The notes below the pieces were generated by a model that was given only the letters and a program-made list of their open reading frames with translations, was not told where the DNA came from and did not search any database. A stretch of DNA of 64,000 nucleotides from Bdellovibrionales bacterium (lineage in GTDB: Bacteria > Bdellovibrionota > UBA1018): contig JAEUWC010000002.1 of the NCBI GenBank assembly GCA_016786465.1, forward strand, positions 62,001 to 126,000, given 5' to 3'. Shown here in pieces: positions 3,006-23,879 of the stretch; the first letter of the stretch is position 1; each line of letters opens with the position of its first letter. The translations under genes were made by a program, and so were the position numbers.

Positions 3006-4634
3006 ATGGTGAGCCTGCCGGATTGCCTGGTGCATCTCCGTGTGGAGAACGCCCGGATCTACATCGCCTTCAAAGATCGGAATCCCTATTTGAACACCCG
3101 AATCTGGGAAAGGGACGAATGGTACATCGTCTTTGCGGGCATCGAAGCGGTCGCGAACGATCGTGTTTTAAACACACCCGGTGCATTTGACGAAGCTTGG
3201 ATTCACCTTCGCGAAAGGGCCGCCGAAAGAAAAGAATTGCGAGCGGCCTACTTCATCAACCACGAAACGATCGGACACTTTGAAGCCTTCATCCAGGAAA
3301 TGGTACAGCACCGGGTTTCTAATTTTTACCTGGCCTATTCAACCGATGCCGATGTGAAGCCCAGCGTGCCCTTGATTGATCGACTTCGAAAGCGATTCCC
3401 GGAAATCCGTTTCATGATGGATCGAGACCTGGAAGTCGCCGTCGGCATGGCGTTGGATCAGCCGCTGACCATGCCCCGTCGCGCAGTGATTGAAATCTTC
3501 AACGATTGCAATCTGGCCTGCGACTTTTGCTGGACCCATTCTCCGTACCGAAACTACAAGAACCCCGAAGGTTATTTCAGTCGCAAGCTGACCAAAGAAA
3601 CGATCGCGCGCTATGTGGAAGAACTGGCAGGTTTTGACGTCGAAACCGTCGAACTTTGCGCGGTCGGCGATCCGCTTTTTCACCCTGACGTCTGGGAAAT
3701 CATTGACCACATCAAATCCAAAGGGCTTCGGCTTCGAATCAGCACCAACGGAACTTTGATCACAAAGGCCAAGGCCGAACGTTTCATCGAAATCGGCGTC
3801 GAACAGCTTTTCATGAATATTTCGGCAGGGGATCGCGACACCTACCACCGAATCCACAATGTATCGCCGACAATCTATGACAATTTGGAAAGAAATCTGA
3901 AATATTTGTCGGACCTTCGTGAAAAGACTGAAAAGAAGTATCCCTATATGCAGATCATCAATGTGATCACACGGGAAAACGTCGACGGGTTAGAAAAGAT
4001 GATCGATTTTTCGGCGCTGATCCGCGCTGACTTCACGGAATTCAGAAAAGTCTGGATTGCGCAGGATTTTTTAAAGTCCGTCAATTTTTCAAAAGAAAAA
4101 TTGGTTTCGGTTTTGGCTGAAAAAGATCGTCTATTAAAAAAAATGAAGGACTTGGGCTTGGCGGGAAACCTGGAAACTTTTTATCAGGACGTCCAAACGG
4201 ATCTGGAAGACCGAAATGCGGGGGCCGTTGAACTGGTCGATTTCAAAGCCAAACCCAAACCTGACAAGACCGAATACGGCGAACAACAGGGTGACTATCA
4301 CGAAGACCCCTGGAACCCGCCCGCCCAAGGACTGGACCCGGAAATCGGGGCGATCGTTCCTTGTTCGATTTCTCAGCACTTTACCTTGATTGATGTGAAT
4401 TCTGACCTTCGCTACTGCTGCATGGGGGATAAAATCCATTCTCCGTACGGAACGATCAAGGAACAGTGGTTGGATGCGCGATATCAAAGCTTTAGGAAGT
4501 TTTGGAAAAAGCGTTACGCCGATGGCGGGAATATCTGTCGCGGCTGCCCCCACGTTGGAGAAAATCGACACTATCAAGAAGTTTTGGAACGATTGGGTTT
4601 AGTGGAAATGGTGCGGGAAGGGGTAGGGCGATGA
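3006..4634 (+). CDS. Radical SAM protein with C-terminal SPASM-like domain
   Basis: The 542-residue protein has an about 155-residue N-terminal extension, then the radical SAM motif CNLACDFC (CxxxCxxC), a GDP-type segment (CAVGDPLFHPD) and ISTNGTLIT, typical of the AdoMet-binding TIM barrel. The last about 100 residues hold further cysteines (PCSIS, RYCCMGD, NICRGCPH) in the arrangement of a SPASM auxiliary Fe-S region. Members of this group modify peptides, or sugars in glycan loci. The gene lies 23 bases after the SGNH gene and its stop overlaps the next start (ATGA). The substrate cannot be read from sequence. Confidence 0.88.
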   Translation: MVSLPDCLVHLRVENARIYIAFKDRNPYLNTRIWERDEWYIVFAGIEAVANDRVLNTPGAFDEAWIHLRERAAERKELRAAYFINHETIGHFEAFIQEMVQHRVSNFYLAYSTDADVKPSVPLIDRLRKRFPEIRFMMDRDLEVAVGMALDQPLTMPRRAVIEIFNDCNLACDFCWTHSPYRNYKNPEGYFSRKLTKETIARYVEELAGFDVETVELCAVGDPLFHPDVWEIIDHIKSKGLRLRISTNGTLITKAKAERFIEIGVEQLFMNISAGDRDTYHRIHNVSPTIYDNLERNLKYLSDLREKTEKKYPYMQIINVITRENVDGLEKMIDFSALIRADFTEFRKVWIAQDFLKSVNFSKEKLVSVLAEKDRLLKKMKDLGLAGNLETFYQDVQTDLEDRNAGAVELVDFKAKPKPDKTEYGEQQGDYHEDPWNPPAQGLDPEIGAIVPCSISQHFTLIDVNSDLRYCCMGDKIHSPYGTIKEQWLDARYQSFRKFWKKRYADGGNICRGCPHVGENRHYQEVLERLGLVEMVREGVGR

Positions 4635-6067
4635 AAAGTTATCTGGTTCACGAAGGCGACAATTTAGATGCCTTAAAGTCGGCCCTTTCACAGACCATGC
4701 CCGATGAACTTTTTTTGCTGCGCTTTCATCCGGGGCTTTCTGACGAAGGACGAAAAGTCGCGATCGAACTTTTGGGAAAGACCACACGCCAGGGTTGCGT
4801 GGTGTTGGATGTGATGGACCGGGGGACCCCGGTGATTCACCATCCCTTGATTTCACTGATTCAACAGGCGGGGATTCCCAATCTTTGCGTGGCTATGGAC
4901 CTAAACCCGGGTCCGGCGCAGATGGGGCCTTTCGAAGCGCTTCATCACAAGCATCCGCGCGATCGAAGCCAGACTGGGGTCGACTTTGAAGGCATCCGTG
5001 GCTATTTCAAAGATCGATTTCAAGTTTTTCCCCTGGTGAAATTTCAGGAAGAAAGTCAGCTGGATGTTTTGTACCCCACGCTGATGGTTTTTGCGGATGC
5101 CGGAATTCGATGGGTTCAGTTAGAACCGTTGTTTCCGAATTATGACGTTGCCGTCAAGATCAAGAACACCTTCAAAATGCTTCGCATGCTTCAGCGTACG
5201 AAGCTTCAGATTCAGTTTTCGTATTTTCTGGAAAATCGCCGTGTTTGGAACAGTAAGACCGATAATCTTTTTTCCGGGCCAATCAAGCTGGACATGGACG
5301 TTTCCAATACCTGCACGCACAACTGCACTTTCTGTACGTACTATTCGGACGCGGGCATGGAAGAAAACAAGAAGGCCCACGGCGGAAAATTAAGTCCGGA
5401 TCGCGTAAAGCTTTTGGCCGCCAAGTTGGACACGGACCGAGGAATGAAGTTTTTGAAGGCGCTTCCCGACAGCGTCGAATTCATTCAGTTTGGTGGGATC
5501 GGGGATCCTTATACCCATCCGCAAATCGACGATTTCATTCAAGTGGCGCGCAATCGCGGTTTCACATCCAGCATCTTGACGAACTTCAGTTACATGGATC
5601 ACGCGCGCCTGGACCGCTTGCATCGATTGGCCGGCCCGTCAGGTTGGGAACTGCATTACGTGGTCAATCTGGCGGCTTCGACCGGTGAAACCTATGTCAA
5701 GGTTCGACCCAACCAAACGCCTGCGACATTTGAAAAAGTGATTCGGCACATTCAGTACGCAAATCGCCTTCACGAAGCAGACCCTACGCGCCGAATCGGA
5801 TTCACGCTTTTGTTGGTTCTGAATAAGTACAATTTTCGCGACATGGTTCATTTTGTCAGCCTGGCGGGTGAATTGGGTGTGAACCAGGCTTGGATCAAAC
5901 CCATGGAAATTCATTCGGACATCCACAAAGAGCAGCTTCCGGTCGGATCGGAATTGGAAGAATACAAAGGATTGGTCATGAAATCGATTCTTCTGGCGGA
6001 TCGCCTGGGCTTGAAACTTCATAACCGGCATCTGCTTCAGGCGATGCTGAACAAGGAGACCACATGA
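4631..6067 (+). CDS. Radical SAM protein lacking its own SPASM region
   Basis: From the ATG at 4631, which overlaps the preceding stop, the protein has 478 residues. An about 220-residue N-terminal domain resembles the upstream radical SAM protein in layout. The core carries CTHNCTFC (CxxxCxxC), then FGGIGDPYTHP and SILTNFSYM. It ends soon after the barrel, with no cysteine-rich tail. The missing part appears to be supplied by the next gene, whose start overlaps this stop. Longer reading frames extend upstream to 4502 but run inside the previous gene. It is probably half of a two-subunit radical SAM/SPASM enzyme. Confidence 0.85.
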   Translation: MKSYLVHEGDNLDALKSALSQTMPDELFLLRFHPGLSDEGRKVAIELLGKTTRQGCVVLDVMDRGTPVIHHPLISLIQQAGIPNLCVAMDLNPGPAQMGPFEALHHKHPRDRSQTGVDFEGIRGYFKDRFQVFPLVKFQEESQLDVLYPTLMVFADAGIRWVQLEPLFPNYDVAVKIKNTFKMLRMLQRTKLQIQFSYFLENRRVWNSKTDNLFSGPIKLDMDVSNTCTHNCTFCTYYSDAGMEENKKAHGGKLSPDRVKLLAAKLDTDRGMKFLKALPDSVEFIQFGGIGDPYTHPQIDDFIQVARNRGFTSSILTNFSYMDHARLDRLHRLAGPSGWELHYVVNLAASTGETYVKVRPNQTPATFEKVIRHIQYANRLHEADPTRRIGFTLLLVLNKYNFRDMVHFVSLAGELGVNQAWIKPMEIHSDIHKEQLPVGSELEEYKGLVMKSILLADRLGLKLHNRHLLQAMLNKETT

Positions 6068-6465
6068 AAAAGATCGGGGTTTTGACCGGTGACTTTGCGA
6101 TCGATCTTTACCAATCCATCCCTTGCAAGGTGGGAAACAAGTACCTTCGCGTTCAGGTCGACGGTGGGGTGAACCCCTGTTGTGTGATGGGAACGACGAT
6201 GGGGAACATCGCCGAAAAGGATTACCACGAAGTTTGGTTTTCGGATTCCTACAGCGTCTTTCGTGAAAGAATGGAAAACATCCATCACGAAAAGTTTCAT
6301 TTGACGGACCCGGAATGGGCCTTTTGTCAGCAGTGCCCGCATTCAGAAGTGAACTTGGAAACCTATTACGAATCGGAAGTTGAAAAGGATCCCAAGAAAG
6401 TTTCTTCCGAAGACATGCGTGCCGCTGTTTTTCAAAAGATCGCTGAAAAGAAGGGGAACGGTTAG
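6064..6465 (+). CDS. Stand-alone SPASM-like Fe-S domain protein
   Basis: This 133-residue protein has cysteines in IPCKVG, NPCCVMGTTMGN and FCQQCPHSEVN, matching the C-terminal cysteine block of the radical SAM protein encoded at 3006-4634 (RYCCMGD, CRGCPH). It has no radical SAM motif. Its start overlaps the stop of the preceding radical SAM gene (ATGA). AAGGAG at 6053-6058 sits five bases before the ATG, so it has a proper initiation site and is unlikely to be a frameshift artefact. The likely role is to carry the auxiliary iron-sulfur cluster, or a substrate-binding lid, for its upstream partner. Confidence 0.75.
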   Translation: MKKIGVLTGDFAIDLYQSIPCKVGNKYLRVQVDGGVNPCCVMGTTMGNIAEKDYHEVWFSDSYSVFRERMENIHHEKFHLTDPEWAFCQQCPHSEVNLETYYESEVEKDPKKVSSEDMRAAVFQKIAEKKGNG

Positions 6466-6471
6466 GGCCCG

Positions 6472-7848
6472 ATGTTCGGCGATATCAATAAGTTAGAAGA
6501 AATGAAGGCCAAGCTGAATTCGGTATCGCCGTCGTTTTGCATGGCGAAATGGAAGCACGTGACGATTCATTTGATGAACGGCCACACGCATTCCTGTTAC
6601 CTGCCCAGGACCCACGCGATTCCGCTTGAAGAATTGAAGAATAATCCGTCTGCGCTTCACAACACTTCGTACAAGAAAGAACAGCGCAGAAAGATGCTGA
6701 ATGGCGAGCGCCCCGAGGAATGCAAGATTTGCTGGGAAATCGAAGATCTTCCGGGGAATCAAACCAGTGATCGGCATTGGCGGGGAATTGACAGCTGGAC
6801 TTTGCCGTTTTTTGACGAAATTCGAAAGACGCCCTGGGACGCGAACGTCTATCCGTCCTATGTCGAAGTCAGTTTCAGCAGCGCCTGCAATTTCAAATGC
6901 AGCTACTGTTCTCCGCACGTCAGTTCGAAATGGGCCGAAGAAATCAAGCAGCACGGTCCTTACCAGCTTAGCGAATATCAGCACCAAAACACCCAGTGGC
7001 TTCAGGACAATGGCTTTATGCCCCTGGAAGACGAAGACAATCCCTATGTCGAAGCATTTTGGAAATGGTGGCCGGATCTGGTCAAACAGATGATGTTTTT
7101 CAGGATCACGGGGGGAGAACCGCTTTTATCGAAAAACACCTTCAAGGTTCTGGATTGGTTGAAGGAAAACCCGCAGGCGAATCTGGATCTTTCCATCAAT
7201 TCCAATATGGGCGTTCCGGAACGTCATATGGATCGTTTCATCACTTCCATCAAGGACATCGTTGAAAACGGAAAAGTGAAGAATTTCATGCTTCACACCA
7301 GCGTGGACACGTTTGGAGAACATGCCGAATACATCCGCAACGGTCTGAACTTTAAGTACTTCGATAAGAACATTAATCGCTTTTTGACTGAAAATCCCAG
7401 GGCATCCGTCGCGTTCATGTGCACGTTCAATAACCTGAGCATTTCGCGGTTTAGGGAATTTTTGGATTGGGTGGTGGATCTACGTACGCGTTACGGATCG
7501 GCTCAACGCTCGGTCCTTCTGGATATTCCGCATCTGATGGGACCGTTTCATCAGTCGGTAAAGATCTTGACCCCAGATTATCTGGATCGCATGCGGGAAC
7601 TTCACACGTACATGCAGTCCAACATCAGCGATGAAAACGGATTTCGCCAAGCCGAAGTAGAAAAGTTTGGCAGAATCATCGGCTGGATGGAATCGCCCAG
7701 CGAAGAAGGTTGGCTGAAGAAGTCACGCCGTGATTTTTACCTGTATTTCAAAGAACATGATCGAAGGCGCGGTACGGACTTTTTGAAAACGTTCCCGCAG
7801 ATGAAGGATTTCTGGGAACACTGCAAATCGCTGGTACATGAAAAGTAA
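6472..7848 (+). CDS. Twitch-type radical SAM protein
   Basis: The 458-residue protein has an N-terminal cysteine-bearing part (SFCMAKW, HSCYLPR, ECKICWEIED) ahead of the radical SAM motif CNFKCSYC at about residues 140-147. This order, with an auxiliary-cluster-like region in front of the barrel, fits twitch-domain radical SAM proteins. Further barrel features include RITGGEPLL (GGE motif) and DLSINSNMG. It follows the SPASM-like gene by six bases and overlaps the next SGNH gene by 11 bases, so it belongs to the same operon. The substrate is unknown; a glycan or peptide in the envelope is plausible. Confidence 0.85.
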   Translation: MFGDINKLEEMKAKLNSVSPSFCMAKWKHVTIHLMNGHTHSCYLPRTHAIPLEELKNNPSALHNTSYKKEQRRKMLNGERPEECKICWEIEDLPGNQTSDRHWRGIDSWTLPFFDEIRKTPWDANVYPSYVEVSFSSACNFKCSYCSPHVSSKWAEEIKQHGPYQLSEYQHQNTQWLQDNGFMPLEDEDNPYVEAFWKWWPDLVKQMMFFRITGGEPLLSKNTFKVLDWLKENPQANLDLSINSNMGVPERHMDRFITSIKDIVENGKVKNFMLHTSVDTFGEHAEYIRNGLNFKYFDKNINRFLTENPRASVAFMCTFNNLSISRFREFLDWVVDLRTRYGSAQRSVLLDIPHLMGPFHQSVKILTPDYLDRMRELHTYMQSNISDENGFRQAEVEKFGRIIGWMESPSEEGWLKKSRRDFYLYFKEHDRRRGTDFLKTFPQMKDFWEHCKSLVHEK

Positions 7849-9019: not shown

Positions 9020-10410
9020 AAAAGGGATCCAGTCGCAAAAAAAAGAAAAAGCTTTGGAAGAAAAGAGCCATTTTGGTTTTTCTTTCGTTGGTGGCGACGG
9101 AATTGGTTCTTCGGGCCGCAGGTTCGCTTTACAATTACGTTCAGCATCAAGGAGCCCCGAAAGCCGATTTTTCTGAAACGGAGGTCCGCGTGCTTTGCTT
9201 GGGCGAATCCACGACGGCTTGGGGCCTTTCAGACAGTTATCCCAGTCAGCTTCAGGACCTGCTTCAAAAGAAAGACCCTTCCAAAAAGTACCTGGTCTAT
9301 AACGAAGGTTTGACGGGTGCGACCACAGGTCAGATTTTGGAAAAGCTTCCAGGTTGGATTGCAAAGTATCGCCCCCACTATGTGGTGACGATGATGGGAA
9401 TCAACGATCCCGTTTTCTTGTCGGGTCGCAAGGAAAGCATCCTTCTGCGCGTTCGCCTGTTCAAATTCATTCATATCGCCTGGGTGAATCTGACCCGAAA
9501 AGTAAAGTCCCAAGGGCAGGCTAAGGTCCTTGCAAAGGCTTGGAAGAATGAAAAACTGATTTCAGAAGCGTCTAAGATTTATTACGACAAGCAGCTTTAT
9601 TCACGTTTTGGGGCGGATCAATCGGCACATGCGGGGCGCGCGACCCATCTTTTCAAACAGGCGTCCTGGCTTGAACCCAAAGATCCAAGACCCCATAAGT
9701 TTTTGGGAAACATCTATCTTCGCTATCCGAAGAACTACGCGTGGGCCGAAAAAGAATTCAACCAAGCCCTGGAATTGGGGATGGTCGACGTCGATATTTA
9801 TGACGGGCTTGGCGAAGTTTATCGAAATCAGTACCGTCTGGAAGAAGGGGTCAAGCGGCTAAAAGAAGGCGTAAAGCGAATTGGGGGTGAAAATTGTCAC
9901 CTTCGCCATTTTCTGATTCAAGACGCAACCCATGCCAAGATGTTCGATGTGGCCCGCGAAGCCTTGGAAGAAGCGGTTGAACTTTGTCCTTACAATAACG
10001 AAGTCGCCGTCGATGCCGAAAGATTTGCCCAAATGACGGGGACGAAGCCGCTTTTAGAACCCCTGACCACCGGTGCTTATTCTTTGGGTAAGGCCCAGGA
10101 AGAAATGCACAATCCCATGACCATTTACAATTACCGCGAAATCGTTCGGCTAATAGAACTATCCGGTGCCATTCCGGTGGTCATGCAATACCCCACGCTT
10201 CAAAACAAAAGGCTGGTCGAAATCCTAAAGAATTTTCCAAAAGCCCGTCTGGTTTCAAATGTGACCAACTTCAATCGTGCCCTTTCGATGGCGTCGTCGC
10301 AGGAATACTTTTCGGATTACTTTGGCGGGACTTTCGGCCACTTCACGGCCAAGGGAGCGCGCCTGGTCGCCGAAGCCGCGGCCGACGCGATCAACGCAGG
10401 TTCAAAATAG
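9016..10410 (+). CDS. Membrane-anchored SGNH hydrolase with inserted TPR repeats
   Basis: After a very basic N-terminus and one membrane helix, the SGNH blocks read VLCLGESTTAWG (block I), YNEGLTGATTG (block II) and MMGINDPVF (block III). The final GHFTAKGARL carries the His of the last block. Between residues about 190 and 320 the sequence turns helical with TPR-like segments (WAEKEFNQALELG, RLEEGVKRLKEGV). Insertion of TPRs between the SGNH blocks suggests a docking surface for partners. The start overlaps the previous stop (ATGA). This is the last gene of the rightward operon and its end overlaps the convergent GNAT-M1 gene by nine bases. Confidence 0.8.
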   Translation: MKKGSSRKKKKKLWKKRAILVFLSLVATELVLRAAGSLYNYVQHQGAPKADFSETEVRVLCLGESTTAWGLSDSYPSQLQDLLQKKDPSKKYLVYNEGLTGATTGQILEKLPGWIAKYRPHYVVTMMGINDPVFLSGRKESILLRVRLFKFIHIAWVNLTRKVKSQGQAKVLAKAWKNEKLISEASKIYYDKQLYSRFGADQSAHAGRATHLFKQASWLEPKDPRPHKFLGNIYLRYPKNYAWAEKEFNQALELGMVDVDIYDGLGEVYRNQYRLEEGVKRLKEGVKRIGGENCHLRHFLIQDATHAKMFDVAREALEEAVELCPYNNEVAVDAERFAQMTGTKPLLEPLTTGAYSLGKAQEEMHNPMTIYNYREIVRLIELSGAIPVVMQYPTLQNKRLVEILKNFPKARLVSNVTNFNRALSMASSQEYFSDYFGGTFGHFTAKGARLVAEAAADAINAGSK

Positions 10411-12144
10411 CAAGGACCCTTCAATCCTGGACTCCAAGAAAGTTTTGAGACTTGGATCGACTTTCAAAAAAGCCCGAGCCAGGTCCCGTCCTTGGACGGA
10501 TCCCATCCAATTTTCCTGGGCATAGTCCTGAATGGCCCGCCAAAACAAGGCGTCTCCCAAGCGCAGGCGTAGGTCTTCTAGAAAAAGGGCAGCCTTGCTG
10601 TAGGTCAGCGACTGGGTTAGGTCGAAATTTTCAGCGGACCGAGGATCACCTAGGCGGAAATCCTGGTTGGACTTCACGGCGGTCTTATGGCGACTTTTTA
10701 AAAGTTCCATTTCGCGGTCGAACTCGGTTTCTCCCCAGGTTTTATTCTTATAGCAAGCGACCAAGAAGGTCGCGAAACCTTCGTTCAGCCAAAGGTCGTT
10801 CCAGGTTCGGCAGGTGATCGAATTCCCGAACCATTGGTGTGCTAGTTCATGAATGATGATCCAGTCGTGCTTTGGGTCTTCAAGAATGGGATCCAAGGCC
10901 TTCTTGCTGATGATCGAAAATCCGTTCTTTTCCTGACAGATGTCATCAGGGACCAAAACTTGGGTGTAGGTTTTCTTGGGATAGGAAATTCCCGTCTTGC
11001 TTTCTAAAAACTTGAGCATGCTAGGGGTTTCTTTGAATCGATTCAAAAGCCCATTGGAAGTTTCCTGCACCCCGTAAAACAAGTACCTTTTCCCTTCATC
11101 CTTGATTTCCGACGATTGAAACTTTCCGATGGCAAATCCAAAAAGATAGGCTGAAAAAGGCAGTTCGTCGCTGCTACAGACCAAAGACATATCCGAAGGT
11201 ACTTTTACGTTCAGTTGAAACGATGCTTTTTGTGAAGGATCCATATGGCAAGGCATCCAGCGGTTCGTTTCATGGCCTGTAAAGGCATAAGACGAATGGA
11301 TGGTCAGACCGGAACTTGACCGCACTTGATAGCGAAAAGTCACCGACTTTGCGGATGCTGGAACCTGCATCCAGAAATTTTCGCCCCAAAGCTGGAAGTC
11401 GCATTTCTGATTTTCGCAAAGGACTTCGTGAATTTCGTAGCCAGGCAGCTTCAACGTCAGACGGGAAGGCTGATCCAAGGGTTGAAAGAACAAAGTGCAG
11501 ATCCCCTGCGCAGTCTTCTTCTGAAAGTCGATGACCAGGTCCGTTTGATAACGGATCGCCTTTTGGCTTCGAGCAGGGCGAAGCAGGGAAGGGTTTGACA
11601 TTGAAAAATGACAAAGTCCTTGGGCTTCACTTTCCAATTCAAAGCCCAGGTCCAGAATCAGGGAACGTGCAGCGCTGTTGTTAGTATGACACTTCAGAAA
11701 TACACGCTTGGCCTGAAGTTTTTCGAATGCGTATTTCGCAAGGGCATGGGTGGATTCAGATGCGTAGTTTCTTCGAGCCCGTGAAGTCCGCGTCCAAAAT
11801 CCGATTTCAAATTCACGTGCCTTCCAGTCGTACCAGGAATAGCCGACGGCACCGACCAGTTCAGCGGTCGAACGATCAAAGACATGAAAGCGCAGGTCAT
11901 GCCGCAGCCTAAATTTTTCGGCAGCCTGTACTGATTCCTCTTCACAGATTTCTTCTGAAAATTTCCGCCCCCGGACCCATGGACTAAATGGTTCCAGTTC
12001 GCCGATCGATTCCTGAATCGCATGGAAAACCGCCTTTCCGTCACCTTTCTGGGGTGGGCGGATCACCAGACGTTCGGTCTGGATAGGCAGGGGAAAAGGA
12101 AAGTCAGCTGGATTGGTCACGCAAGTTTGACTATAGTTAACCAT
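10402..12144 (-). CDS. GNAT acetyltransferase fused to M1-family metallopeptidase
   Basis: The first about 165 residues form a RimJ/RimL-like GNAT domain (LVIRPPQKGDG, VGAVGYSWYDW, ARRNYASES, LILDLGFELE). The remaining about 410 form an M1 (gluzincin) domain with HELAH at residues 432-436 and the third zinc ligand Glu 19 residues after it, then TYSKAALFLEDL, which may carry the catalytic Tyr. The GAMEN exopeptidase motif, expected about 27 residues before HELAH, is replaced by EKNGF. No signal peptide is visible, so the protein should be cytoplasmic. I took the ATG at 12144; an upstream ATG at 12168 would overlap the divergent gene. Acetylation and peptide trimming in one chain is inferred. 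Confidence 0.8.
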   Translation of the reverse strand: MVNYSQTCVTNPADFPFPLPIQTERLVIRPPQKGDGKAVFHAIQESIGELEPFSPWVRGRKFSEEICEEESVQAAEKFRLRHDLRFHVFDRSTAELVGAVGYSWYDWKAREFEIGFWTRTSRARRNYASESTHALAKYAFEKLQAKRVFLKCHTNNSAARSLILDLGFELESEAQGLCHFSMSNPSLLRPARSQKAIRYQTDLVIDFQKKTAQGICTLFFQPLDQPSRLTLKLPGYEIHEVLCENQKCDFQLWGENFWMQVPASAKSVTFRYQVRSSSGLTIHSSYAFTGHETNRWMPCHMDPSQKASFQLNVKVPSDMSLVCSSDELPFSAYLFGFAIGKFQSSEIKDEGKRYLFYGVQETSNGLLNRFKETPSMLKFLESKTGISYPKKTYTQVLVPDDICQEKNGFSIISKKALDPILEDPKHDWIIIHELAHQWFGNSITCRTWNDLWLNEGFATFLVACYKNKTWGETEFDREMELLKSRHKTAVKSNQDFRLGDPRSAENFDLTQSLTYSKAALFLEDLRLRLGDALFWRAIQDYAQENWMGSVQGRDLARAFLKVDPSLKTFLESRIEGSLLF

Positions 12145-12146
12145 CA

Positions 12147-13355
12147 GTGGTCTCAATTCGAAAATCAAAACGCAGACGGCAGTCTTCGCCGCTTTTTCCT
12201 TTTTTTTCAGTCCTTACGGGCATTTTTCTTGCCCTGGTCTTTTTTGGAATCTTGGAAGCGGCGGCTCGCATCTTCGTGATTTCAGGGCACGATCCTTGGT
12301 TTCTTTTAAAAGTAAAAATTCCAGAAATGAAGGGGTGGCAAGATCCGCTGAATCTTCCTGTCCGCCTTCCATCCAAACTTCCTTTGGCAAAGCGAGGCAC
12401 GCACCCAGTACCTACCGCGGGTGCTGTTGTTGGACCGTCTTACGTCATTTCAAGCACGAAGTTTGGGACGCTTGCGATTCCGAATTCAAAGACCAGGTCC
12501 AAAAAAGTCGTTTTTCATAGCGACCAAGTGATTTACGACGCCGTGTATTCGATGGACATCAATCGAAACCGATGGGTACCCCCAGCGCAGGGTCAAGATC
12601 AACTGAACGCAGCGCAGCTGCTGTTTTTGGGGTGTTCAATCGTATTTGGCGAGGGAGTCGGCGATTCTGAAACCTTGCCTGCACGGGCTCAAGCTTATGC
12701 ACCGGGATTTCGCGCAGTGAATTTTGCTTTGCCCGGGTGGGGGCCTGCCAACATCGCCTTGGCCACGGGTTCGGACGAATACGGTTACCGGGCACCGCAA
12801 GATTCACGGAATCGGAAAAAGAATCAGGCGGTCTACGTTTACATCGATGACCATATGCGAAGGTTGGTCGCGCCGCTATCGATGTATCGCGGGGGTAGTC
12901 GCTGGATGTACGTGATTCCCTATTATGACGTGGATTCCCGCGGTCGATTGATCGAACCCACGCCCGGCGTCATGATTCCCCAAGGGCAGCCGGTTCGACA
13001 CTTTCTTTTGACCTGGCTTTCGAAAAGCGAATTTTTGCGGTGGATGAACTTTGAATGGCCGACGCGTTATGGCGATCACGAATTTGAAAGAATGGCCGCC
13101 GTTCTAGCCAAAATCCAAGAAAACATTCGAGCCCGGGGGTTTGAGAATCTCACCGTCGCTTTCTATCCTGGGTCAAACTCTCAGTACTTGGTGCCCTATT
13201 TGAATTCCAGGGGCATTCGTACCTTAGACTATTCTAAAGTGGATCTAGCGGATTTTGTTTCGGGTCCCGTCACGCTTAGGGATGGGCACCCCAGTCCTGG
13301 AACCCACGATTTCCTGGCGAAACAAATCGTGAATGATCTAGACTTGACCCATTGA
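12147..13355 (+). CDS. Membrane-anchored SGNH-like protein, paralogue of the one at 7838
   Basis: The N-terminus (SIRKSKRRR) and one membrane helix resemble the other SGNH anchors in the window. Block I is FLGCSIVFGEGV and the final block is DGHPSPGTHD. In place of GxND it has VYIDDHMRR, matching the paralogue encoded at 7838-9019. The start is a GTG two bases from the divergent GNAT-M1 start, so its promoter must lie inside that gene. It opens the rightward operon that ends in the PqqD-like and small-peptide genes, and its stop overlaps the next ATG (TGATG). It could be the outward-facing enzyme of that system, or a surface-glycan enzyme. Confidence 0.7.
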   Translation: MVSIRKSKRRRQSSPLFPFFSVLTGIFLALVFFGILEAAARIFVISGHDPWFLLKVKIPEMKGWQDPLNLPVRLPSKLPLAKRGTHPVPTAGAVVGPSYVISSTKFGTLAIPNSKTRSKKVVFHSDQVIYDAVYSMDINRNRWVPPAQGQDQLNAAQLLFLGCSIVFGEGVGDSETLPARAQAYAPGFRAVNFALPGWGPANIALATGSDEYGYRAPQDSRNRKKNQAVYVYIDDHMRRLVAPLSMYRGGSRWMYVIPYYDVDSRGRLIEPTPGVMIPQGQPVRHFLLTWLSKSEFLRWMNFEWPTRYGDHEFERMAAVLAKIQENIRARGFENLTVAFYPGSNSQYLVPYLNSRGIRTLDYSKVDLADFVSGPVTLRDGHPSPGTHDFLAKQIVNDLDLTH

Positions 13356-22535: not shown

Positions 22536-23879
22536 GTGCAAGCCGAGCTTACGGAAGTCTTTCTTGATTCGAAGACCTATTTCCAGAACGTAGACGGAGT
22601 TCAAGTCGATGGGGCATTCGCACATCAAGCGGCAATGGATACCCTTGAGGCTTTGCCGCCCGGATGCGATCGCCGACAAAAGCAATGCCTTTTGATTCCC
22701 GACGAAAACGGGCGCCCGATGGCGGTAGTCGATCTGATTCAGCATTACCCCCGACGTGGGATTGCTTTTCTGGGACTTCTTTTGATTCGAGAGTCCGCCC
22801 AAAAGAAGGGCAGAGGCCGAGCCCTGAGTGCTTGGGTAGAAGCTTTCGCGAAAGAAAAACTGGGGTGCCACACGATTCGACTTTCAGTCGTCGATTCCAA
22901 TCCGGTCCAGGGATTCTGGGAAAAGCTAGGTTATCAGGCGACTGGCGAAGCCAAACCCCACGAAGGGGAAAAAATCAAAAGCCAGAAGCGCCTGATGGAA
23001 AAAAGGATCCCATGGCCTGCGCTAGATGAAACACTTCAGTATCTGAACAGTGATTTAGCGCAAAAGGATCTACTGACGGATCCTTACTGGCCCAAGTGGG
23101 ATGGACCTTGGTGGAGGATGCTTCTTCTTCACGAAATGGGATTTTCAGAACTGATTCCGAAGCCCGTTGTTCGGACGATGGTCGAGCGATTGAACAATCA
23201 CTATTTAAGGATCTTTCCGATTCACTCGGGGGATTTGCCGGCAGGAACTGACCCGGTTCTGGGGACCCTTTGTCATTGCGCGGTTGGAAACATTTTTCAG
23301 GTCCTTCATTCCTGCGGCGTCGATGTGGATTCAGAAATTCCATGGCTTCGTCCTTGGTTTTTCAAGTACCAGATGCCGGACGGGGGATTGAACTGCGACA
23401 ACGACGCCTATTTGAAGCCTGACCTACCTAGTTCAATGGTTGGAACGATCGCGTGCCTAGAAGCCGTTCTGAAGTGCACGCCTAGGGCTTACACGGAAGA
23501 AGAAATTTTGTTCCTGGATCGGGGCGCGAAGTTCTTGATCGATCGCAAAATTTCTTTGGGTTCTTCTAGCCCCAACAACGCCGAAGAAAAGGAAGACGAA
23601 CAAGACTGGAAGAAAATCGGTTTTCCAAGGTTCTATTTTTACGACATCCTGCGCGGCTTTCGGTTCTTGGAAGACTGGTCAAAAAAAATGGGGCGACCCT
23701 TACCGACCGAAGCTTTTTTGGAAGACGCAGGTCGAATGGATCGTCGATTGCGCCGCCGGTCCTACGAAGGCAACCGAACCCGGGTTCATGAAAACGGTGA
23801 ATGGGTCCGAAAAGACGCTCGACTTTTTCCGCTATTGGAAGAAGTCAGCGCCGTCGGGATTTCTTCGCCTTACCTTTGA
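22536..23879 (+). CDS. GNAT acetyltransferase fused to terpenoid-cyclase-like toroid domain
   Basis: The first about 155 residues form a GNAT domain (GIAFLGLLLIRESAQKKGRGRAL as the acetyl-CoA loop region, broken here by a beta strand; VVDSNPVQGFWEKLGYQ as the C-terminal part). The following about 290 residues resemble the alpha-alpha toroid of prenyltransferases and squalene/terpenoid cyclases: LCHCAVGNIFQVLHSCG, KYQMPDGGLNCDNDAYL, SSMVGTIACLEAVL. No DXDD cyclase motif is visible, so this part may be a binding scaffold. The GTG start at 22536 has a poor ribosome site. The 3' end overlaps a convergent membrane-protein gene by 35 bases. Confidence 0.68.
   Translation: MQAELTEVFLDSKTYFQNVDGVQVDGAFAHQAAMDTLEALPPGCDRRQKQCLLIPDENGRPMAVVDLIQHYPRRGIAFLGLLLIRESAQKKGRGRALSAWVEAFAKEKLGCHTIRLSVVDSNPVQGFWEKLGYQATGEAKPHEGEKIKSQKRLMEKRIPWPALDETLQYLNSDLAQKDLLTDPYWPKWDGPWWRMLLLHEMGFSELIPKPVVRTMVERLNNHYLRIFPIHSGDLPAGTDPVLGTLCHCAVGNIFQVLHSCGVDVDSEIPWLRPWFFKYQMPDGGLNCDNDAYLKPDLPSSMVGTIACLEAVLKCTPRAYTEEEILFLDRGAKFLIDRKISLGSSSPNNAEEKEDEQDWKKIGFPRFYFYDILRGFRFLEDWSKKMGRPLPTEAFLEDAGRMDRRLRRRSYEGNRTRVHENGEWVRKDARLFPLLEEVSAVGISSPYL

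Follow-up and report, generated by a model that had tools for sequence, protein, structure and literature searches.

Radical S-adenosylmethionine (SAM) enzymes share the CX3CX2C motif that PMC9012708 gives for the superfamily. The SPASM domain found in some of them is described in PMC6231123 as a seven-cysteine motif, CX9-15GX4C-gap-CX2CX5CX3C-gap-C, holding two clusters, and the twitch domain as a truncated version with one cluster (PMC6231123, PMC9012708). For BtrN, the same two sources give a single auxiliary cluster with four cysteine ligands, and the N-terminal domain of SkfB is presented as a peptide-binding domain (PMC6231123). The role of auxiliary clusters in SPASM/twitch enzymes is called elusive or enigmatic in PMC9012708 and PMC10470005, the latter of which proposes intermolecular electron transfer involving auxiliary clusters for PapB. 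Here, we describe a pair of overlapping genes in a stretch of 64,000 nucleotides from a Bdellovibrionales bacterium (assembly GCA_016786465.1, 3.6 Mb in 30 contigs; contig JAEUWC010000002.1, positions 62,001 to 126,000 of the forward strand), hereafter the window. We put at roughly 80% the probability that the products of these genes are the two polypeptides of a single radical SAM/twitch enzyme, which are translationally coupled and perhaps act in surface-glycan synthesis.

Core and auxiliary-cluster domain are encoded by two overlapping genes

The gene pair comprises the following features:

4631..6067, + strand: radical SAM core subunit, 478 amino acids (PF04055; AlphaFold2 model)
5312..5335, + strand: CX3CX2C motif of the SAM-binding cluster, residues 228-235, CTHNCTFC
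6053..6058, + strand: AAGGAG, Shine-Dalgarno-like, five bases ahead of ATG 6064
6064..6067, + strand: ATGA start/stop overlap of the core gene and the small gene
6064..6465, + strand: stand-alone twitch/SPASM-type subunit, 133 amino acids (PF13186)
6124, 6178, 6181, 6325 and 6334: codons of Cys 21, 39, 40, 88 and 91 of the small subunit

The open reading frame (ORF) of the core opens at TTG 4502 in its longest version, and ATG 4631 is part of an ATGA in which the core gene overlaps the gene upstream. Pfam matched PF04055 to the core (E 3.6e-8; 34.2 bits versus a cut-off of 29.5) and returned no SPASM match in it, which bears out the claim of a first-pass annotation that the core ends without auxiliary-cluster cysteines. 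The three cysteines of the superfamily motif, C228, C232 and C235, were invariant across 21 aligned rows. In the small ORF, PF13186 was the sole Pfam match at E ≤0.1 (E 2.2e-11; 44.3 bits versus a cut-off of 21.5). The AAGGAG that the same annotation had placed five bases before the ATG was found at 6053-6058; on both strands of the window, only 2 of 1580 ATGs, ATG 6064 among them, had this hexamer 3-8 bases upstream. The frame of the small ORF is shut upstream by TAA 6022-6024, and the two frames are jointly open for only ∼40 bases.

The split arrangement recurs within the phylum

A first search covered 58 relatives, 34 of which belong to the same family as the window genome. A close match was present in one of these 34 (G001), where a fused protein of 551 residues was 33% identical to the window core and 40% identical over 88 residues to the small protein (E 5e-28). 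When 368 genomes of the phylum were searched with a profile, 23 gave matches, and 20 of these, with 24 cores, were kept; G305, G335 and G339, whose matches were weak and resembled other radical SAM enzymes, and G040 were used as outgroup rows and not as family members. The small domain was encoded by a separate gene for 16 of the 24 cores, distributed over 13 genomes, 5 genera and 3 families. Five cores were fused (G001, G063, G070, G134 and G136), one had no partner within its locus stretch (G072b), and two were cut by contig ends (G114 and G174). The claim that core and auxiliary-cluster subunits are split is thus strongly supported, and homologues in other genomes keep the split rather than being all fused. 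Seen from the side of BtrN-type twitch enzymes, the C-terminal extension in the same chain was replaced by a separate gene in 16 of 22 assessable loci, the remainder being the five fused and the one partner-less. Four further matches to the small-subunit profile, all weak (E ∼1e-9), in G136, G063, G114 and G001, stand outside these counts. Scans of genome contigs with a few short patterns, a weak search, revealed no relative beyond the phylum: 28 matches led to no relative, and 74 matches led to one, identical to the G001 protein.

The small gene adjoined the core gene in 15 of the 16 split loci, always on the same strand. Ten of these 15 pairs overlapped and five did not; the frame offset between core and small gene was 0 in two pairs, 1 in ten and 2 in three. 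Under lax matching, a Shine-Dalgarno-like 4-mer preceded the chosen start of 14 of the 15 small genes, a count of 4-mers made without a control. In the sixteenth pair (G073), the small gene lies on the opposite strand, ∼1.4 kb away, and the gene separating the two has a relative in G065, an FG-GAP-like protein that itself falls below the Pfam cut-off. This locus, L046:5624-8886, thereby has core and twitch gene on opposite strands around an FG-GAP-related gene, and FG-GAP-like genes adjoin the pair in G065, G067 and G146 as well. In both G145 pairs and both G146 pairs, the small-gene start sits in an eight-base overlap with the core stop inside it (L050:3751-3758 and like places). The pair of G161 (L054:1066-2850) was unlike the others: a single in-frame TAG separates its two parts, ten codons lead from this stop to the first ATG, and the split could be recent or an error. 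In G072, a 92% complete genome, three cores accompany two twitch genes; the lone core (L044:5475-6860) might make use of a subunit of another core, might be in decay, or might have a partner gene that the assembly lacks.

The small gene is conserved, and its cysteines are of the twitch type

All 16 stand-alone subunits contained five cysteines at a spacing of 18-1-48-3. The ratio of nonsynonymous to synonymous substitution rates (dN/dS) of the small gene was 0.03-0.06 in four of five genome pairs, with the synonymous rate (dS) saturated in the fifth, and that of the core was 0.06-0.20 in the same comparison; these ratios are rough, as dS was mostly >1 and fell below 1 only in G150/G155 (0.58 and 0.75), where the ratios were 0.04 and 0.06. 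Judging from these rates, the small gene is under purifying selection. The distance matrices of cores and small subunits were correlated across the 16 pairs (r 0.94, with 0 of 5000 permutations as high), a correlation for which shared ancestry alone suffices.

The CX2CX5CX3C block of the seven-cysteine SPASM domain was missing in all 16 stand-alone subunits, and each of them carried the CX9-15GX4C and CX2C elements of BtrN-type twitch domains, enough for one cluster. The top PDB match of the small subunit was the twitch region of BtrN (E 8e-8). Aligned with 4M7S, the window protein places C21, C39, C88 and C91 opposite four BtrN cysteines, the alignment being of low confidence at C88 and C91; the alignment with 4M7T ended before these two. 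Because the cysteine pattern is of the twitch type and no solved structure comes closer than the BtrN twitch region, the small protein is, from its sequence, best called a twitch subunit, even though Pfam's SPASM model matches it. The first-pass annotation had described 6064-6465 as an auxiliary-cluster cysteine block and nothing else; this description stands as regards the single Pfam match, whereas the SPASM type has to be replaced by the twitch type.

A tethered model is consistent with the small subunit sitting where single-chain enzymes have their twitch domain

The AlphaFold2 model of the window core (predicted local distance difference test [pLDDT] 87.4, predicted template modeling score [pTM] 0.86) showed a beta/alpha N-terminal domain (residues ∼1-200) followed by a radical SAM barrel (∼215-478), and no C-terminal auxiliary-cluster domain. 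Model residues 215-478 matched solved radical SAM barrels with a best Z of 19.3; the top matches DesII, BlsE, SkfB and viperin were tied at Z 18.4-19.3. The structural matches listed for the core barely touched the N-terminal 200 residues, and no search was made with that part alone.

For a view of the two subunits together, the G161 pair was modeled through its one stop (pLDDT 90.0, pTM 0.90; low-confidence linker at residues 473-498). Compared with the window core, Z rose for SkfB from 18.4 to 23.4 (211 to 293 aligned residues), for SuiB from 17.9 to 21.9, for PqqE from 14.9 to 19.3, for anSME from 14.8 to 19.2 and for MoaA from 15.0 to 18.3, and it dropped from 17.3 to 15.3 for NifB and from 16.0 to 13.9 for pyruvate formate-lyase activase. 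The alignments of the tethered pair to SPASM/twitch enzymes extended over the small subunit. The tethered model thus fits a predicted placement of the small subunit at the canonical position of the twitch domain.

Fused and split states changed repeatedly on the tree, and an origin by duplication of the fused neighbor finds no support

A tree of the 24 cores and six outgroup rows implied at least four changes between fused and split states; G114, G174 and G072b were coded as unknown in the tree tests, many deep branches were weakly supported, and the window row was long. Grouping of the fused rows into one clade was rejected by the approximately unbiased (AU) test (p 0.00026), as was a single clade of split rows (p 3.5e-6). 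Within genus g40, where one case is better resolved, the fused G070 and the split G066 were sisters (96/94); of the nine rows in the set to which they belong, six were split, two fused and one unknown. At DNA level, the linker of G070 can be aligned through the region where the split genes have their stop and start, and it has lost both. Most simply, G070 would be a re-fusion, i.e., a change from split to fused; the genome is listed with 9% contamination.

Immediately upstream of the pair lies another radical SAM gene:

3006..4634, + strand: radical SAM neighbor from the same operon, its single chain including a SPASM-like cysteine tail

The first-pass annotation had matched the small protein to the tail of this neighbor and had taken fused and split forms side by side to suggest duplication followed by fission. 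This match could be confirmed but is a weak one, with 20% identity across 93 residues (E 6e-5), and the Pfam SPASM model gave no match on 3006-4634 at E 0.1. A tandem duplication of 3006-4634 as the origin of the pair is not supported: its identity to the window core is 19% and limited to the radical SAM part, it groups in the tree with the outgroup of other radical SAM enzymes outside the core family, and a sister placement of the two was rejected (AU p 0.008), both rows being long branches.

A second radical SAM enzyme and glycan-related genes surround the pair

The core gene, the small gene, 3006-4634 upstream and the following gene downstream form a tightly packed run:

6472..7848, + strand: second radical SAM enzyme with an N-terminal twitch domain (N_Twi_rSAM, NF033640; 366 bits versus a cut-off of 170)

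Close relatives of this N-twitch enzyme were present in the locus stretches of 11 of the 20 genomes, making it a frequent operon partner, and a protein family with a conserved WxRNS...GxSDxDxT-like stretch occurred in those of 10 of the 20; the profiles behind both counts were built from some of the same members. Six of the 16 split loci had no close N-twitch relative in the locus stretch, two of them (G150 and G155) having a distant one. The second family, whose window copy lies ∼10 kb upstream of the pair, has a motif that we take to be nucleotidyltransferase-like:

L005:5143-6075 and, e.g., L039:10938-11909: WxRNS...GxSDxDxT-like family members (Pfam match in none of four scanned)

The stand-alone subunit was considered as donor of the N-terminal twitch domain of the downstream enzyme, an idea that found no support: hhalign indicated no relation between the subunit and the N-twitch parts of 12 locus proteins (probability 0.3%, E 0.22), in contrast to its matches with the fused relatives (E 4e-50) and with other C-terminal domains (E 4e-21). 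In favor of that idea, the N-terminal part of the N_Twi_rSAM model scored the small protein weakly (E 4e-4 in the window, 1e-6 in G285).

The window and the stretch before it contain glycosyltransferases, a carbamoyltransferase, a fusion protein of sugar-nucleotide type and GDSL-hydrolase-like proteins. An ABC exporter pair was present in the locus stretches of G063, G066, G070 and G072, together with a glycosyltransferase except in G072, some of these genes being assigned by clustering only. This neighborhood suggests a surface-glycan pathway. A single protein at L005:8847-11141 combines mannose-6-phosphate isomerase-like, nucleotidyltransferase and APH-type kinase domains. Two further composite proteins were noted in the window: a GNAT acetyltransferase carrying a fused peptidase M1 domain (10402-12168, - strand) and a GNAT domain followed by ∼300 residues with no Pfam match at E 0.01 (22536-23879, + strand).

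Proposed mechanism and alternative explanations

We infer complex, cluster and substrate of the two-polypeptide enzyme as follows. The small protein would fold around one [4Fe-4S] cluster and dock where the C-terminal twitch/SPASM domain sits in single-chain enzymes. By analogy with BtrN-like enzymes, the core would then cleave SAM and carry out hydrogen abstraction on the substrate, and the cluster of the small subunit might take up the electron, as proposed for BtrN, or the radical might be tuned otherwise. Stop/start overlaps and Shine-Dalgarno-like sites would keep the two products in step. The weakest step is the last, in which a sugar or a glycan precursor may be the joint substrate of this enzyme and the N-twitch enzyme encoded next to it, as part of a surface-polysaccharide cluster.

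Several observations weigh against a two-polypeptide twitch enzyme of this kind. The tethered model is an artificial read-through with fused rows in its alignment, which favors docking; the core-only and tethered models are of proteins from different genomes, so that their Z values are not a clean comparison; and viperins gained slightly too (6q2p, Z 17.9 to 18.7, with 207 to 250 aligned residues). The division of the G161 pair consists of one in-frame stop only, and a single frame offset is common to 10 of the 15 same-strand pairs. All 20 genomes are in many contigs and come from one phylum. Finally, G150, G155, G145a and G146a presumably lie among housekeeping genes, which we recognized by N-terminal sequence, and a glycan role may therefore not be general.

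The small protein might instead be a soluble electron carrier, or a partner mainly of the downstream N-twitch enzyme and not of the upstream core. In several genomes, the small gene does lie between the core gene and the N-twitch gene, the proposal for PapB offers a precedent for electron transfer between molecules (PMC10470005), and the weak score of the N_Twi_rSAM model on the small protein points the same way. We nevertheless regard this as improbable, given the near-constant position of the small gene beside the core (15 of 16 loci) and the split loci without a close N-twitch relative. Moreover, the small domain is fused to the core in five genomes, whereas a fusion to the N-twitch enzyme was not found among the ORFs searched, and the downstream enzyme has an N-terminal twitch domain of its own.

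A split that is apparent only, with programmed frameshifting or stop read-through yielding mostly fused protein, would be in line with the short overlaps, the common frame offset, and the pairs of G065 and G161, where both parts share a frame and are separated by stop codons only. However, offsets of 0, 1 and 2 all occur, so no single frameshift explains all pairs; a Shine-Dalgarno-like 4-mer stands before nearly every small gene; and the small gene of G073 is on the opposite strand. We therefore consider this explanation very improbable; a minor fused product alongside the two separate proteins is possible. That the split in the window stems from an indel introduced into a fused gene by sequencing or assembly is very unlikely: a small change within the ∼40-base doubly open stretch would indeed join the frames, and G001 provides a fused relative in the same family, but the core ends 13 residues past its last conserved block, within the 10-30 of other split cores (judged by eye), the AAGGAG before the small gene is rare and well spaced, and the same arrangement recurs in 12 other genomes. 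Taken together, the offsets in the 15 pairs and the opposite strand in G073 mean that the arrangement cannot be put down to an indel or to a single frameshift common to all.

Beyond the two-polypeptide enzyme, the twitch domain could work in trans, as a detachable redox subunit available to more than one radical SAM core. We raise this reading, which seems rather unlikely at present, because G072 has three cores for two small subunits and because of the opposite-strand small gene of G073. If a subunit has been attached and detached repeatedly in this way, omission and swapping could reveal what the auxiliary cluster does. Auxiliary clusters are presumably hard to study because removal of the domain breaks the chain; a separate, co-translated auxiliary-cluster protein would allow leave-out, add-back and exchange tests of the role of the cluster. 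For annotation, the split means that the core alone resembles a single-cluster enzyme and the small gene a fragment.

Comparison with known systems

None of the curated libraries scanned held a family that spans the small protein as a unit. The W_rSAM_matur model (TIGR04317, cut-off 380 bits) scored the core with 44.6 bits and the neighbor 3006-4634 with 97.8 bits. Assignment of the core to anti-phage viperins was likewise dropped: NF038283 gave it 26.2 bits versus a cut-off of 180, reflecting general radical SAM similarity only, and the PADLOC pVip match (E 2.5e-7) covered only residues 223-331, inside the radical SAM domain. TIGR04304, the GeoRSP system SPASM domain protein, resembles the small subunit in being a SPASM protein named apart from its radical SAM/SPASM counterpart TIGR04303; the match, however, was weak (18 bits versus a cut-off of 300), and the model has 293 positions, over twice the length of the small subunit. 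Searches of open-licence literature listed no paper on an independent twitch or SPASM protein that partners a radical SAM core.

The N_Twi_rSAM enzyme of the same operon also combines a radical SAM domain with a one-cluster domain, but carries its twitch domain at the N terminus of the same chain. The sugar-modifying radical SAM enzymes DesII and BlsE shared the top VIA-align Z values with SkfB (19.3 and 18.6 for the core, 23.9 and 23.2 for the tethered pair, tied within 1); unlike the pair, they are single chains, and the shared fold has no bearing on the substrate. SkfB, a twitch radical SAM sactisynthase (PDB 6EFN), was the first Foldseek match of both the core and the tethered pair and has the same order of N-terminal domain, barrel and twitch domain; it differs in being a single chain with 14-19% identity. 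BtrN, the twitch radical SAM enzyme 2-deoxy-scyllo-inosamine dehydrogenase (PDB 4M7S/4M7T), provides the best PDB match of the small subunit, yet it is one chain, whereas here the twitch protein is separate and the core carries ∼200 additional residues as an N-terminal domain. The known relatives of solved structure carry core and cluster domain in one chain.

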